Of a stretch of 40,779 nucleotides of DNA, positions 7,023 through 13,143 are shown piece by piece. Location of the stretch: contig CAMBRI010000012.1 of NCBI GenBank assembly GCA_945870205.1, positions 1 through 40,779 on the forward strand, given 5' to 3'. The position numbers and the translations under genes are program-made. Position 1 is the first letter of the stretch. Every line of letters begins with the position of its first letter. Source of the stretch: Sulfuritalea hydrogenivorans sk43H (GTDB lineage Bacteria; Pseudomonadota; Gammaproteobacteria; Burkholderiales; Rhodocyclaceae). Under the pieces are notes generated by a model. The model ran no database searches. It had not been told where the DNA came from and saw only the letters and a list, made by a program, of their open reading frames with translations.

Positions 7023-8615
7023 ATGAACCTGCCTGCCGGTATTCAGATCACTGCCCCCGTCACCGCCGACTACGCAAAGATCCTCACGCCCGAAGCCATG
7101 ACGCTCGTGGCCAAGCTGCACCGCGCCTTCGAGCCGCACCGCCAGGAACTGCTCAAGGCCCGCATCGCACGCCAGGCACGCATCGATGCCGGCGAAATGC
7201 CCGACTTCTTGCCGGAAACAAAACACATCCGCGACGGCAACTGGAAGATTGCGCCCTTGCCCAAAGCTCTTGAACGCCGTCACACAGAGATCACCGGCCC
7301 CGTCGAAGCCAAGATGGTCATCAACGCCTACAACTCCGGTGCGGACAGCTACATGACCGACTTCGAGGATTCCAACAGCCCGAAGTGGGACAACCTGATT
7401 CAGGGCCAGCTCAACATCTACAAGGCCATCCGCCGCGAGCTGAGCTTCAGGAACGAGGCCGGCAAGGAATACAAGCTCAACGACAAGGTCGCCACCCTGC
7501 AGGTACGGCCGCGTGGCTGGCATCTCGACGAAAAGCACGTGCTGATCGACGGCCAGCGCGTTTCCGGTGGCATTTTCGACTTCGCGCTGTTTCTGTTCCA
7601 CAACGCCAAGGAGCAGCTCGCCCGCGGCGCCGGCCCCTACTTCTACCTGCCGAAAATGGAAAGCCACCTCGAAGCCCGCCTGTGGAATGACATTTTCATC
7701 ATGGCGCAAAACGAGGTTGGCCTGCCGCAGGGAACCATCAAGGCCACGGTGCTGGTTGAAACGATCCTGGCCACCTTCGAACTCGAAGAAATCCTCTATG
7801 AACTGCGTGAGCACAGTGCCGGCCTCAACGCCGGACGCTGGGACTACATCTTCTCCTGCATCAAGAAGTTCAAGCGCAATAAGGATTTCTGCCTCGCCAA
7901 TCGCGGCGCCATCACCATGGAAGTGCCCTTCATGCGCAGCTACGCGCTGGCGCTGGTCAAGGCCTGCCACAAGCGTGGCGCTCCCGCCATGGGCGGCATG
8001 AGCGCGCTGATCCCGATCAAGAACGACCCGGTGGCCAACGAGAAAGCGATGGCCGGCATCCGCCACGACAAAACCCGCGATGCAAACGACGGCTTCGACG
8101 GCGGCTGGGTGGCCCACCCGGGGCTGGTGTCGATCGCCGCCGAGGAATTCAGGAAGGTGCTGGGCGATCGTCCCAACCAGTGGGACAAGCAGCGCGACGA
8201 AAACTTCGGCCCCAAAGACTGGCTCAACTTCCAGCCCGAACAGCCGATCACCGAGACCGGAGTTCGCAATAACATCAACGTCGGCATCCATTACCTCGGC
8301 AGTTGGCTCGCCGGCAACGGTTGCGTGCCCATCCACAACCTGATGGAAGACGCGGCCACGGCCGAGATCAGCCGCTCGCAGATCTGGCAATGGGTGGTGT
8401 CGCCCAAGGGCAAGCTGGATGACGGCCGCAAGGTCACCGCCGAGATGGTGCGCGCCATCATTCCCGAGGAACTGGCAAAGGTGAAGGCCACCGTCACGGC
8501 CCAGGGCGAGAAGACCGAAACTTACGACCAGGCGGCGAAAATCTTCGAAGAAATGTCACTGGCCGACAACTACCCGGAGTTCCTTACGCTGCCGCTCTAC
8601 GAGGCGATGGAATAG
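7023..8615 (+). CDS. aceB: malate synthase A
   Basis: Condenses glyoxylate with acetyl-CoA to give malate, completing the glyoxylate bypass begun by aceA. The 530-residue length is that of the A form, not the roughly 720-residue G form. The family signature is plain: REHSAGLNAGRWDYIFS at about 260-276. Other conserved blocks are NSGADSYMTDFEDSN, the acyl-CoA site region KATVLVETILATFE and the C-terminal region around NLMEDAATAEISRSQIWQW. AAGGAG lies 9 bases before the ATG. The gene is divergent from lysR and ends at a strong terminator, so it is probably monocistronic. Confidence 0.97.
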   Translation: MNLPAGIQITAPVTADYAKILTPEAMTLVAKLHRAFEPHRQELLKARIARQARIDAGEMPDFLPETKHIRDGNWKIAPLPKALERRHTEITGPVEAKMVINAYNSGADSYMTDFEDSNSPKWDNLIQGQLNIYKAIRRELSFRNEAGKEYKLNDKVATLQVRPRGWHLDEKHVLIDGQRVSGGIFDFALFLFHNAKEQLARGAGPYFYLPKMESHLEARLWNDIFIMAQNEVGLPQGTIKATVLVETILATFELEEILYELREHSAGLNAGRWDYIFSCIKKFKRNKDFCLANRGAITMEVPFMRSYALALVKACHKRGAPAMGGMSALIPIKNDPVANEKAMAGIRHDKTRDANDGFDGGWVAHPGLVSIAAEEFRKVLGDRPNQWDKQRDENFGPKDWLNFQPEQPITETGVRNNINVGIHYLGSWLAGNGCVPIHNLMEDAATAEISRSQIWQWVVSPKGKLDDGRKVTAEMVRAIIPEELAKVKATVTAQGEKTETYDQAAKIFEEMSLADNYPEFLTLPLYEAME

Positions 8616-8656
8616 GGAAACGAGCACCGGCGAAAACCGTCCTCGAAGACAACACC

Positions 8657-8687
8657 GGCGCACGGAGTAACCCGTGCGCCGTTTTTA
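8657..8687 (+). terminator. rho-independent terminator of aceB
   Basis: A perfect 10-bp GC stem (8657-8666 with 8673-8682), a 6-base loop and five Ts. Confidence 0.88.
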
Positions 8688-8969: not shown

Positions 8970-10670
8970 ATGGCGGACGACGCACAAAAAACCGAATGCA
9001 AGGAAGGCTTCTTTCACTGCCTTCTCAACCCACCGAAATGCTCGATGTTGCGCATGATCGTGATCGGCGTGCTCGGCGGTATCCTCATTTGGGGCGGCCT
9101 CAACACCGGTATGGAATATACCAACCGCACCGAGTTCTGCCTCTCCTGCCACACCATGAAGACTCCTTACGAGGAGTTGAAGAAGACAGTGCACTACAGC
9201 AATCGCACCGGCACCAGCGTCGGCTGCTCTGACTGCCACGTCGCCAGCAGCAAGGAGCCCTTTGACTACGCGCGCAAGCTGACACAGAAGGTCTTCGCCT
9301 CCAAGGACGTCATCGGCGAAATTCTGGGGACCATCGATACTCCGGAAAAATTCGAGGCGCATCGTCTGACCATGGCCAAGCGCGTCTGGGCACACATGAA
9401 GGAAACGGACTCCAAGGAATGCCGTAACTGTCACAAGTTCGACAAGATGGATACGACCAAGCAGAAGGACCGCTCCGCCGTAAAGCATGAGGGTGCGGTT
9501 CAGGACGGCAAGACCTGCATCGACTGCCACAAGGGCATCGCCCACAAACCGGTGCACCATTTGCTGGAAGGCGGACAGGCCCCGGCCGGTGCGGCAGTAG
9601 CAAGCACTTCGCCGCCGACGGAGCAACCAGCAACTCCTGTAGCACCCAAGGTCGAGACCGCTGGCGCCCCGCCAGTTGGCGCTACGCCCCCCAGTACCGT
9701 ACCGGCAATCGCTGCCAAGACGCCGGTTGCGGCCGCCGATGCTGGCAAACCGGCAGCCAAGGGCGATGCGGTGGAAAAGGCCGAAGCGAAAAGCCCCCCA
9801 GCCGCTGCTGGCGGGTCGGTCAAGGCCATGGACTGGAGCAAGGTACCGTCGCGCCAGATCAAGGTTTTCTATCCGGGCCAAGCCGGCCTGGAATGGGTTA
9901 TGAACAAGGCCGACCATTCGTCCGCCGCCGACATTATCGAAAAGAAGCGCGCCTGTGCCAAATGCCACGAGGGCGACGCCAACGAAGTCGGTGCCGCAAT
10001 CGTCGCAGGAAAACCGGTGGGCGTTTCCAAGACCGTGATGGAGCCGAACCCGCCTCCGGGCAAAGTCGGATTCATCCCGGTAACGTTCCAGACCACCCAT
10101 GACGGCAGCAAGATTTACTTCCGCTTCGAATGGGTACCGCCGAAGAACGGGAACACGAAGCTGGACCCGAAGAACGAGGTGAAGCTTGCGATGATGTTCG
10201 ACGGCGGCGGTACGGTCGAAGGCAGCGAACAGAACGGCTGTTGGGCCACCTGCCACGTCGATCTGCGAACCATGAAAGACGCCAAGGATGACAAGAAGAC
10301 CAAGTACATCAAGGACGCCGATCTCGCCGCCGGCAAATTTATGGATCTGATCCAGTATCGCAGTGGCAAGGGCCAGAATCCGGTCGACGGCTGGGTGGAC
10401 AGCGAGCGCCACATGGACGGCGGCAAGAGTGGGCTCAAGGCCGAGGGCAAGAAGGAAGGCAACAAGTGGATTGTCACCTTCGAGCGCGCCTTGGCGGCTG
10501 GTGGCAAAGGCGATCATGCGATTGCTGCCGACAAGGTGTATAACTTCGGCTTCGCGATTCACGAGGACTTCACCAACGCCCGTTTCCACTATGTTTCGCT
10601 GGGCTATCAGTTCGGCCTGGACAAACCCAATCCGGGTGTGAAGAACTATATCGACGTGCAAAAGCAGTGA
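8970..10670 (+). CDS. NapC/NirT-type tetraheme cytochrome c fused to a c-heme and ethylbenzene-dehydrogenase-gamma-like heme-binding domain
   Basis: A 566-residue fusion. A single membrane helix (about 27-44) anchors a periplasmic NapC/NrfH-type domain with four CXXCH sites at 57, 86, 151 and 183. The first is CLSCHTM, the CX2CHxM form in which NrfH uses Met to ligate heme 1. NapC-family proteins exchange electrons between the quinone pool and periplasmic partners. An Ala/Pro-rich linker follows (about 200-285), then a fifth site CAKCH at 329, then a domain (about 365-560) resembling the heme-b-binding gamma subunit of ethylbenzene/dimethylsulfide/selenate/chlorate-type dehydrogenases. Inside it is an odd CWATCH (424-429, CX3CH). 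No molybdenum enzyme is encoded nearby. fccA follows after 53 bp, suggesting electron exchange with the FccAB pair. The start is weakly supported by GGA 8 bases upstream. The domain call for the C-terminal half is from pattern memory. Confidence 0.85.
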   Translation: MADDAQKTECKEGFFHCLLNPPKCSMLRMIVIGVLGGILIWGGLNTGMEYTNRTEFCLSCHTMKTPYEELKKTVHYSNRTGTSVGCSDCHVASSKEPFDYARKLTQKVFASKDVIGEILGTIDTPEKFEAHRLTMAKRVWAHMKETDSKECRNCHKFDKMDTTKQKDRSAVKHEGAVQDGKTCIDCHKGIAHKPVHHLLEGGQAPAGAAVASTSPPTEQPATPVAPKVETAGAPPVGATPPSTVPAIAAKTPVAAADAGKPAAKGDAVEKAEAKSPPAAAGGSVKAMDWSKVPSRQIKVFYPGQAGLEWVMNKADHSSAADIIEKKRACAKCHEGDANEVGAAIVAGKPVGVSKTVMEPNPPPGKVGFIPVTFQTTHDGSKIYFRFEWVPPKNGNTKLDPKNEVKLAMMFDGGGTVEGSEQNGCWATCHVDLRTMKDAKDDKKTKYIKDADLAAGKFMDLIQYRSGKGQNPVDGWVDSERHMDGGKSGLKAEGKKEGNKWIVTFERALAAGGKGDHAIAADKVYNFGFAIHEDFTNARFHYVSLGYQFGLDKPNPGVKNYIDVQKQ

Positions 10671-10723
10671 TGCGGCAATCGGTTTTTTTGCAGTACATTC
10701 ATCGAAACCAAGGAGGAGACAAT

Positions 10724-11302
10724 ATGATGATGAAGTGGAGAGGATGGGCGCTGGCCACCGGCGTCTTGGCGGTATCCGCATTGGCGCAGGCGGCACCACC
10801 GACGGCAGCGATGTTGTCCTATGCCTGCGCCGGCTGTCACGGCACCAACGGCGGCAGCGCAGGGCCGACCATGCCGAGCCTGGCCGGCCAGTCCAAGGAA
10901 GCCATTGAAGTCGCCATGAAGAAATTCAAGAGCGGCGAGCGGTCCGGGTCGATCATGGGCCGCCTGGCGAAGGGTTACAGCGACGCTGAAGTGACCGCCA
11001 TGGCCGAATTCTTCTCCAAGCAGAAACTTCACGCCACCTCCCAGACCCTTGACAAGGCGAAGATTGCCAAGGGCGCCAGCCTGCAGGAAGCGAACTGCGG
11101 CCGCTGCCACATCGAGGATGGCAAGGAAGGCAAGGACGACACGCCGGCCATGGCCAGCCAGTGGCTGCCCTACATGCAGATGCAAATGGCCGACTACCTG
11201 TCGGGCAAGCGCAAGATGCCGGAAAAAATGAAAGAGAAGGTCGATCCAATGTCGAAAGAAGACATCGAAGCCCTCTTGCACTTCTACGCCAGCGTTAAAT
11301 AA
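10724..11302 (+). CDS. fccA: diheme cytochrome c (c4/FccA-like), probable FccB electron acceptor
   Basis: A 192-residue periplasmic protein. The Sec signal peptide (about 1-23, ending AQA-AP) is followed by two class-I cytochrome c domains with CAGCH at 35-39 and CGRCH at 125-129. Likely Met ligands are in SIMGRLAKG (near 78) and at 165 or 175. Cytochromes of this c4/FccA/SoxE type carry two hemes and take electrons from the flavoprotein of flavocytochrome c sulfide dehydrogenase. The ATG at 10724 has a perfect AAGGAGGAG upstream; an in-frame start at 10667 is rejected because it would overlap the previous gene and lacks such a site. The fccB gene starts 13 bp downstream. An alternative is a generic cytochrome c4 unrelated to sulfide. 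Confidence 0.85.
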   Translation: MMMKWRGWALATGVLAVSALAQAAPPTAAMLSYACAGCHGTNGGSAGPTMPSLAGQSKEAIEVAMKKFKSGERSGSIMGRLAKGYSDAEVTAMAEFFSKQKLHATSQTLDKAKIAKGASLQEANCGRCHIEDGKEGKDDTPAMASQWLPYMQMQMADYLSGKRKMPEKMKEKVDPMSKEDIEALLHFYASVK

Positions 11303-11315
11303 AGGAGAACACAAC

Positions 11316-12605
11316 ATGACTCTGGATCGCAGAAGTTTCCTCAAGCTGATCGGCGCCGGTGCTGGTGCAGCAGGCGCCGTGAGCCTGCCTCTGATCGGAC
11401 AGGCCGCAGAACTGATGCCGAAATCGGCCAAGCGTGTGGTCGTGATCGGCGGCGGCTATGGCGGCACCATCGCGGCCAAGTACATCCGCATGATGGACAA
11501 GGGCATCGAAGTGGTGATGATCGAGCGCAACGACCATTTCGTTTCGTGCCCGTTCAGCAACCTCTACATCGGCGGCGTCCTCACCGACCTCAATCCGCTG
11601 ACCATCAAGTACGACAAGCTCGCCGCCAATCACGGCGTCAAGGTCGTGCAGGCCGAAGTCACCGCGATCGATGCGGCAGCCAAGATGGTCACGACATCCA
11701 AGGGGACGATCGCCTACGATCGCCTCGTGGTAGCGCCCGGCATCGATTTCCGCCTGGAAGAAATGAAGGGCTACGATACTGCCGCAATGGAAGTCATGCC
11801 TCACGCTTGGAAGGCCGGTCCGCAGACCGTCCTGCTGCGCAAGCAACTGGTGGCCATGAAGGATGGAGGCACCGTGGTGATGACCGTACCGCTCGCACCC
11901 TACCGCTGCCCGCCCGGACCATACGAGCGCGCCAGCATGATTGCCCATTACCTGAAAGCGAACAAGCCGAAGTCGAAGATCATCGTGCTCGACGCCAACC
12001 CCGACATCACATCGAAGGGCGGCCTTTTCAAGAAGGGCTGGAAGGACAACTACGCTGGCATCATCGACTACCGTCCGGCCAAGAAGGTCACCGAGGTGGA
12101 TGCCAAGGCCATGGCTGTCATGGTCGAAGGACTCGAAGAGGTCAAGGGCGACGTCATCAACGTGATTCCGCCGCAGCGTGCCGGACAAATCGCCGTCGCC
12201 GCCGGATTGGTCGGCGATGACAAGAACTGGTGCCCGGTCAATGCGAATACCTTCGAGTCGACCAAGCAGGCCGGCATTCATGTCATCGGCGATGCCTGCG
12301 TTGCCGGCGCGATGCCGAAATCAGGCTACTCGGCCAACTCCGAAGCCAAGGTCTGTGCGATGAACATCGTCGCCTTGATGAATGGCAAGGAAACCACCGA
12401 ACTGTCTGGCATCAACACCTGCTACAGCTATATCACCGACAAGGAGGCTGTAAGCGTCGCGGCGGTGTACGCGGTCAAGGAGGGCAAGATCATTGCCGTG
12501 CCGAATTCCGGTGGCGTTTCGCCGGCAGACTTCTCGGCCGCCAAGATCGAGGCCGTGTATGCGGAAAGCTGGCTGAAGAATATCCTGACGGAAATGTCCA
12601 CCTGA
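11316..12605 (+). CDS. fccB: flavocytochrome c sulfide dehydrogenase, flavoprotein subunit
   Basis: A periplasmic FAD protein of the FccB/SoxF family that oxidises sulfide to sulfur or polysulfide and passes electrons to a c-type cytochrome. The 429-residue precursor starts with a Tat signal (DRRSFLK at 4-10, then a glycine/alanine-rich hydrophobic stretch). The FAD dinucleotide motif VIGGGYGG follows at 43-50. Three cysteines lie where the family needs them: Cys78 in SCPFSN (covalent FAD attachment), and Cys198 in YRCPPGPYE with Cys369 in INTCYS (redox disulfide). Their spacing matches Cys42/161/337 of the Allochromatium vinosum protein if about 36 residues are removed. AAAGGAG precedes the ATG. 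The gene ends the cluster at a strong terminator. Confidence 0.93.
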   Translation: MTLDRRSFLKLIGAGAGAAGAVSLPLIGQAAELMPKSAKRVVVIGGGYGGTIAAKYIRMMDKGIEVVMIERNDHFVSCPFSNLYIGGVLTDLNPLTIKYDKLAANHGVKVVQAEVTAIDAAAKMVTTSKGTIAYDRLVVAPGIDFRLEEMKGYDTAAMEVMPHAWKAGPQTVLLRKQLVAMKDGGTVVMTVPLAPYRCPPGPYERASMIAHYLKANKPKSKIIVLDANPDITSKGGLFKKGWKDNYAGIIDYRPAKKVTEVDAKAMAVMVEGLEEVKGDVINVIPPQRAGQIAVAAGLVGDDKNWCPVNANTFESTKQAGIHVIGDACVAGAMPKSGYSANSEAKVCAMNIVALMNGKETTELSGINTCYSYITDKEAVSVAAVYAVKEGKIIAVPNSGGVSPADFSAAKIEAVYAESWLKNILTEMST

Positions 12606-12622: not shown

Positions 12623-12659
12623 AAAAAAGCAAACCCCGCTGTTGCGGGGTTTGCTTTTT
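12623..12659. terminator. bidirectional terminator between fccB and dut
   Basis: A perfect 11-bp stem (12629-12639 with 12644-12654) and TGTT loop, with Ts after it on the plus strand and As before it. It can therefore stop both the fccB transcript and the convergent coaBC-dut transcript. Confidence 0.92.
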
Positions 12660-12687: not shown

Positions 12688-13143
12688 CTACTGATGCCCC
12701 GTGCTGCCAAAGCCACCGGCGCCGCGATCGCTCGCGGCGAAGTCATCAACGACATTGAAAGCCACCTGCACCACCGGTACCACCACCAGTTGTGCTAGTC
12801 GATCGAGCGGATTAAGCGTAAAGCTATCGTGACTCCGATTCCACGTGGACACGAATATCTCGCCCTGATAGTCGGAGTCGATCAACCCGACAAGATTACC
12901 CAGCACGATGCCATGCTTATGGCCAAGACCGGAACGCGGCAGAATCATCGCTGCCAAGGTCGGATCCGACAAATGAATGGCGATGCCGGTCGGGATCAGG
13001 ATGGTCTCGCCGGGTTGGATCTTCAATGCGCTATCGACGCAGGCACGCAAGTCAATGCCGGCCGATCCGGGGGTCGCGTAGTGCGGGGCGTAGCGCTCGT
13101 CCTTCAGACGCGCGTCGAGTATCTTGAGGTCAAGCTTGGCCAT
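12688..13143 (-). CDS. dut: dUTP diphosphatase
   Basis: Hydrolyses dUTP to dUMP and pyrophosphate, keeping uracil out of DNA and supplying dTMP synthesis. The 151-residue homotrimeric-type protein shows the five motifs in order: [33 protein letters not shown] and the glycine-rich C-terminal tail [10 protein letters not shown]. Its start overlaps the end of coaBC by 14 bp, so the pair is one transcription unit, the same coupling as in E. coli. Confidence 0.97.

Follow-up and report, generated by a model that had tools for sequence, protein, structure and literature searches.

The window analysed here is a stretch of 40,779 nucleotides from Sulfuritalea hydrogenivorans sk43H (contig CAMBRI010000012.1), in which a gene for a fusion cytochrome, fccA and fccB follow one another 5' to 3' on the + strand and are closed by a two-way intrinsic terminator hairpin. 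This row and its bidirectional terminator had been described in an earlier reading made from the letters alone (the sequence-only reading); Pfam and motif analysis confirmed the three genes, and the terminator is a perfect hairpin at 12624..12659 with 16-bp arms and a 4-nt loop. The fusion cytochrome (8970..10670, +; 566 amino acid residues) was delimited by Pfam, haem motifs, a transmembrane stretch and alignment. Its N-terminal half (8970..9584, +; residues 1–205) is a tetraheme, quinone-linked domain of the NapC/NirT type (PF03264, 4e-65) with a single N-terminal membrane anchor at residues 26–44 and four CXXCH motifs at residues 57, 86, 151 and 183. Exchange of electrons with quinone or quinol is a predicted property of this domain. 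A low-complexity linker rich in alanine and proline separates it from the C-terminal half (9804..10670, +; residues 279–566), which was matched to the EB_dh (ethylbenzene dehydrogenase-type) domain at 3.7e-30 (PF09459) and whose EB_dh fold was borne out by a predicted model built without haem, so the EB_dh match expected by the sequence-only reading was found.

The extra CXXCH that had been noted is indeed present, in the EB_dh half (residues 329–333); a second haem motif of this half, CX3CH at residues 424–429, had been overlooked. The whole fusion contains five CXXCH motifs and one CX3CH motif and, because of this second motif, probably carries six haems, of which the one at CX3CH would be bound covalently. 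With an EB_dh domain, its fold and two haem motifs, the C-terminal half corresponds to a NirB-type diheme protein. In ethylbenzene dehydrogenase the haem b of the gamma subunit is ligated by Met and Lys. Different from EbdC, the gamma subunit of ethylbenzene dehydrogenase, and from NxrC, the cassette protein has covalent-haem motifs and comes without a molybdoenzyme; a molybdoenzyme complex of this kind was rejected, given that the neighbours are NapC, fccA, fccB and flanking genes, with no molybdoenzyme partner gene among them. TorC and related NapC proteins presumably share the fusion of a NapC domain with an extra cytochrome domain. In the window protein, however, the C-terminal half is an EB_dh domain with two haem motifs, and its score of 211.4 lies under the NCBIfam TorC cut-off of 478.2, so that an assignment as TorC was also rejected.

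The fccA gene (10724..11302, +) encodes the diheme haem subunit of flavocytochrome c, 192 amino acid residues long with a signal-peptide-like start; the program-made open reading frame starts upstream, at a GTG at 10667. The fccB gene (11316..12605, +) encodes the flavoprotein of flavocytochrome c sulfide dehydrogenase (FCSD), which has 429 amino acid residues, a Tat signal and the family cysteines Cys78, Cys198 and Cys369. We take these cysteines to be the flavin-binding cysteine and the disulfide pair. FCSD domains, the flavin cysteine, the disulfide cysteine pair and a haem subunit are all present, and sulfide dehydrogenase activity of this FccAB is predicted. FccB matches FCSD at 6e-127 and sulfide:quinone oxidoreductase (SQR) at 1e-11, and its identification as an SQR was rejected on this difference.

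Moreover, these features are conserved in a cassette of fixed order. Genome contigs were searched with the EB_dh alignment alone and the best 80 of 122 relatives were kept, so linkage to NapC and fccAB was not built into the scan. In the kept loci fccA was next to EB_dh in 80 of 80, fccB came after in 78 of 80 (the contigs of L079 and L132 end first, and in L144 fccB lies in two frames) and NapC preceded EB_dh in 77 of 80 (the contigs of L088, L101 and L145 begin too late). The association of the fusion with fccAB put forward by the sequence-only reading is thus conserved, and a lack of linkage was rejected by the fixed order. Its further proposal, that the fusion wires FccAB to the quinone pool, is consistent with the linkage, the fold and the genomic context, but the fusion itself turned out not to be essential: NapC and EB_dh were fused in 20 of the 77 loci where this could be judged and were separate neighbouring genes in the other 57. 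The essential feature is therefore the four-gene cassette and not the fusion. The recurrence of the fusion in 20/77 loci, with at least four changes on a tree, also led us to reject a chance fusion or an assembly join.

The haem and cysteine motifs of the kept loci, counted together with the window, were conserved as well. Four CXXCH motifs were found in 78/78 NapC parts (the window and 77 loci), one CXXCH plus one CX3CH in 81/81 EB_dh sequences, two CXXCH in 80/81 FccA (one exception) and all three FccB motifs in 74/79 FccB; of the remaining FccB, those of L127 and L130 keep the cysteine in a slightly altered motif, those of L123 and L142 run off their contigs, and that of L144 is split across two frames, of which the motif check covered the second only. 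The cysteines and histidines of the EB_dh motif pair also showed no variation across 18 aligned sequences of mixed type, 11 of them nir-linked. The kept loci came from Sulfuritalea, Rhodocyclaceae, Thiobacillus, Sulfurisoma, Rhodoferax, Rubrivivax, Gallionellaceae, Sideroxyarcus, Azoarcus, Propionivibrio, Ca. Desulfobacillus denitrificans, Ca. Nitricoxidireducens bremensis and others. All were betaproteobacterial where a lower group was named, and two were labelled only Proteobacteria.

Two kinds of side gene were seen near FccA and FccB relatives. A further diheme-cytochrome-like gene, ~28–32% identical to FccA, lies directly behind fccB on the opposite strand in L032:5593-6300 and at the equivalent place in L033, L034, L039, L044, L045, L050 and L171; the window does not have it. 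An orphan FccB-like flavoprotein with 33–34% identity and no fccA called beside it occurs at L230:7029-8318 (-) and also in L231–L235; in L230 the position of the flavin-binding cysteine reads LPMSN and RCPP.PYER is retained.

The relatives of the NapC/EB_dh pair indicate what the pair may be. In the same bacterial family, a second EB_dh, ~50% identical to the fcc-type one, lies behind nirS (PF02239, 7.6e-154, tested in L058) with nirC, nirF and nirJ. Among 15 mapped loci of this nir type, NapC and EB_dh were both called in 10 and NapC was not called in 5, one of which, G039, does hold NapC. According to passages of PMC8954225 and PMC13086519, NirT is tetraheme, NirB is diheme and NirT is thought to feed NirB and then NirS; a NirTB fusion is already in print (passages of PMC13086519). 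In Pseudomonas stutzeri RCH2, Table 1 of PMC5554334 lists an "Ethylbenzene dehydrogenase", Psest_0817, two tags from NirS, Psest_0815, with control/Cr(VI) fitness values of -0.7/-2.1 against -0.5/-2.1 for NirS. Given that the relatives occupy the place of NirT and NirB beside nirS, and given these fitness data, we interpret the window protein as a NirTB-type fusion of a NirT tetraheme part and a NirB diheme part. The equation with NirB rests on the gene order nirS-nirT-EB_dh, on Psest_0815/0817 and on the published diheme description.

The NirT-NirB system (nirSTB, or a fused NirTB) of Stutzerimonas/Pseudomonas stutzeri and others is therefore the nearest counterpart: a tetraheme NapC/NirT protein and a diheme EB_dh-type protein, neighbouring or fused, the nir-linked EB_dh also having both CXXCH and CX3CH. 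Its partner is NirS, however, and that of the cassette is FccAB. A tree of NapC plus EB_dh with 88 rows (78 fcc and 10 nir) separated the fcc-type and nir-type pairs on one fully supported branch, and no nirS-like gene was found in 25 mapped cassette loci. On these grounds, an assignment of the window protein to the NirTB of nitrite respiration was rejected. The kinship with the nirS-linked pairs, which occur in the family of the cassette and in other genomes, and the NirS-like fitness of the RCH2 protein would also suit an arrangement in which the NirB-like domain is supplied with electrons both by FccAB and, via the NirT-like domain, by quinol, and delivers them to acceptors in the periplasm, for example NirS, with quinone not the main acceptor for sulfide electrons. 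G002 and G005, however, carry the cassette together with a separate nirS-linked NirT+EB_dh pair of their own, which, together with the branch split, points to separate partners; with nirS-like genes also missing from the mapped cassette loci, we consider such an arrangement unlikely.

The chromosomal site of the cassette bears on what FccAB may do there. In the window the cassette lies between a gene that is presumably malate synthase (7023..8615, +) and a gene that is presumably dut, for a dUTPase-like protein (12688..13143, -); these flanking genes, named from their sequence, appear functionally unrelated to the cassette. The cassette occupies this site in the window and in 14 mapped genomes of the genus, a few of which have one or two extra genes in between; in 1 of the 14 the contig stops before the right flank. 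Two other members of the genus, G010 and G017, instead carry an ordinary fccA-fccB pair between malate synthase and dut, whose FccA/FccB are 44/54% and 41/55% identical to those of the window. There fccAB is followed by genes for 130 and 423 amino acid residues (L152:8350-10110; L153:9205 onward), the latter being Sulf_transp (PF04143, tested in L152 of G010), and neither gene was seen beside the cassette. Among the 31 genomes of the genus, cassette-type FccB was found in 25 and ordinary FccB (47–55% identity) in 3, never together. The genus members in which no cassette was seen at the site, apart from those with ordinary fccAB, are four and all incomplete: G009 has its malate synthase gene at the edge of a contig, and no malate synthase match was obtained in G014, G029 or G030, of which G030 has an ordinary FccB elsewhere in its genome. 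Of the 11 family genomes that have DsrA but lack the cassette, 9 hold ordinary FccB; this figure is not a contrast, since ordinary FccB is widespread across the family.

Carriers of the cassette were also rich in sulfur-oxidation genes. Among 150 related genomes, 36 were carriers, including G021, counted on FccB identity alone with linkage not seen there, and G018, in which EB_dh exists only as pieces at contig ends (L031, L171). DsrA or SoxB was found in 35/36 carriers and 52/114 non-carriers. In the family outside the genus of the window, DsrA was found in 9/10 carriers and 6/50 non-carriers (p 3e-6) and SoxB in 9/10 and 17/50 (p 0.0015). With regard to quinones, UbiA was over the cut-off in 28/31 genomes of the genus and MenD in 0/31, and MqnA was found in 0/150 related genomes; matches of MenD under the cut-off, which we take to be other enzymes of its superfamily, were excluded from the counts. 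Electron transfer from sulfide to ubiquinone is downhill, and the reverse is strongly uphill.

Given the same-site exchange with ordinary fccAB, the enrichment of DsrA and SoxB and the presence of ubiquinone without menaquinone genes in the genus, oxidation of sulfide with quinone as acceptor is the direction that the gene content favours. We propose, with a probability of about 0.52, that in the cassette FccAB and a NirTB-type relay together form a periplasmic unit that transfers electrons from sulfide to quinone. FccB would oxidise sulfide, or a related sulfane or persulfide, at its flavin-disulfide centre and pass the electrons to the two haems of FccA, from which they would move to the diheme NirB-like domain, on to the tetraheme NirT-like domain with its membrane anchor, and finally to ubiquinone. 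The formation of a complex between FccAB and the relay, the substrate and the direction of the electrons are predictions from gene content and homology. A more tentative view, which we hold to be possible and somewhat short of an even chance, is that the FccAB version forms a multi-part sulfide:quinone oxidoreductase and thus a third route besides SQR and the cytochrome-c-linked Fcc.

Several results weigh against the proposed sulfide:quinone unit. The carrier counts are not independent, because 25 of the 36 carriers share one genus. Mutual exclusion of the two FccB types is confined to that genus, because 7 of the 10 family carriers outside it (G032, G037, G048, G052, G054, G058 and G070) also hold ordinary FccB at 47–52% identity; inside the genus, the carrier G007 has a further FccA-FccB pair at 35/41% (L169), and several carriers have an orphan FccB-like protein at 33–39%. 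Given the outside carriers and G007, the cassette is not a simple replacement of ordinary Fcc everywhere, and these FccB counts made us slightly less confident of the proposed unit. Outside the genus, MenD was moreover found in 7/10 carriers and 6/50 non-carriers (p 4e-4), so that in those carriers the cassette could work reductively, with menaquinol as electron source. The usual reading of NirT/NirB and NapC-type proteins, in passages of PMC8954225 and PMC13086519, is that they oxidise quinol and supply reductases with electrons, and ImoA, a proposed quinone reducer, was shown to oxidise quinol (PMC9600427). This usual direction (PMC8954225, PMC9600427) would suit a cassette in which electrons run from quinol through the NirT-like and NirB-like domains to FccAB and reduce polysulfide, tetrathionate or similar; ordinary FccB kept beside the cassette would then leave the latter free for another job in those outside carriers. 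The lack of menaquinone genes over the cut-off in the genus of the window, the same-site exchange and the Dsr/Sox link, however, are in keeping with oxidation, and the potential of ubiquinol is too positive for it to reduce sulfur. Such a reductive mode is disfavoured in the genus of the window and seems quite unlikely overall, but it may apply elsewhere.

The trees of FccB also add to the points against the proposed unit. The clade of cassette FccB has a support of 98/92 and also includes three rows without a seen relay. FccB of L159 (G079) lies inside the clade without an adjoining relay, and those of L156 and L157 lie near its base, likewise without one; at the locus of the L128 FccB an EB_dh is present, and L155 and L158 stop at a contig edge, so that absence of the relay cannot be judged there. 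In a careful tree with 36 cassette rows (of 80) and 11 others, cassette-type FccB was not one clade (2 changes; one clade in 6% of bootstrap trees), and a topology with a single clade was not rejected either (p-AU 0.363). This tree left out ten unlinked rows, namely eight long or second copies and L158 and L159 inside the clade, and the omission of the last two favours a single-clade result. A single origin of cassette-type FccB is thus neither shown nor rejected, which we count against the proposed unit. A clade member without its relay, such as L159, could mean that relay and FccAB share no more than their regulation and exchange no electrons directly; the order was fixed in 80/80 loci, however, while the flanking genes differ between genera, and we regard this explanation as very unlikely.

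The state of the NapC-EB_dh fusion was also followed along the trees. On the NapC plus EB_dh tree the fused or split state changed at least four times, and this repeated fusion suggests that the two halves function jointly. On the FccB tree it changed 8 times against 4 on the NapC plus EB_dh tree, which suggests that cassettes have exchanged fccB with one another. Similarly, L075, L080 and L085 have fusions close to that of the window (EB_dh 85–91% identical) yet FccB only 68–79% identical, a mismatch that suggests exchange of fccB within the cassette.

Compared with known enzymes of sulfide oxidation, ordinary FccAB (PDB 1fcd, 3vrd, 5n1t) shares with the cassette a diheme FccA and an FccB that binds flavin adenine dinucleotide and has the three family cysteines. 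Cassette FccB, however, falls in the separate clade described above and is encoded behind a quinone-linked relay, and its electrons are proposed to reach ubiquinone, whereas those of ordinary FccAB exit to soluble cytochrome c. SQR, which is a single membrane-bound flavoprotein, catalyses the overall reaction proposed for the cassette, from sulfide to quinone; in the cassette FccB is the flavoprotein, and the cytochrome would hold the quinone site. In passages of PMC4288042, Fcc is described as donating electrons to cytochrome c, and SQR as reducing the quinone pool, which yields more energy. If the proposed unit exists, reading fccAB as a low-yield, cytochrome-c-linked enzyme would be wrong for these Betaproteobacteria, which are mostly uncultured and have sulfur-oxidation genes (Sulfuritalea, Thiobacillus, Rhodocyclaceae and others), and their sulfide electrons may enter the main respiratory chain directly. 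It may also bear on a puzzle in Rhodocyclus, where NirB is abundant without any nitrite reductase (passages of PMC8954225).

The sequence-only reading knew of no described system of this exact composition. Our literature search found no paper that combined NapC, ethylbenzene dehydrogenase and flavocytochrome c, or ethylbenzene dehydrogenase and fccAB, and no NirT/NapC-FccAB system among the titles, abstract starts and passages of the matches listed. Its claim thus holds for the pairing with FccAB and fails for the fusion, since a NirT+NirB-type fusion beside nirS was already published. The new element is the conserved NirTB-type relay joined to FccAB; the fusion half has precedent.

More widely, the relay pair was found with other partners. 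In a class-wide sample, EB_dh was matched in 39 of 369 genomes, G000 included and several matches being partial, and 19 loci outside the genome of the window were mapped: 14 in nir clusters, 3 beside monoheme porins, 2 with MtrB/PioB and none in an fcc context. In the nir loci nirS was directly beside the pair in 11/14, and only other nir genes were seen in L211, L212 and L228. The EB_dh of these nir clusters was mostly fused to NirT and sometimes doubled; for instance, NirT with two tandem NirB-type EB_dh domains, ~920–930 amino acid residues in all, lies beside nirS at L217:7771-10557 (-) and L221:6696-9461 (+). On plasmids of Azospirillum, Ruegeria and Aliiroseovarius, the fused protein is encoded between a gene annotated as cytochrome D1 protein or nitrite reductase and a copper-protein gene. 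Since the pair also adjoins MtrA/MtrB-type genes and monoheme porins, the data suggest that NirT/EB_dh is a reusable relay between quinone and periplasm, with FccAB as one partner among several.

At L226:3387-8374, NapC/NirT and EB_dh adjoin a DmsE/MtrA-family multiheme protein and an MtrB/PioB porin, and at L227:7692-12964 EB_dh is found with a decaheme, MtrB/PioB and a weakly NirT-like tetraheme gene. In L223–L225, NapC/NirT and EB_dh are beside porins of 400 amino acid residues with one N-terminal CXXCH; no family model was over its cut-off for these porins, which we take to be Cyc2-like by architecture only. Iron or extracellular electron links are possible for the pairs linked to MtrA/MtrB or to porins. 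Within the window, a weak terminator-like hairpin 3' of malate synthase (8656..8681) lies between that gene and the cassette; 5 such sites were observed in the window against 6.7 in shuffles. Finally, contig C83 of the genome of the window itself (L229:4312-5706, -) encodes another, separate EB_dh protein, ~465 amino acid residues long, that has both CXXCH and CX3CH but no recognised NapC neighbour.

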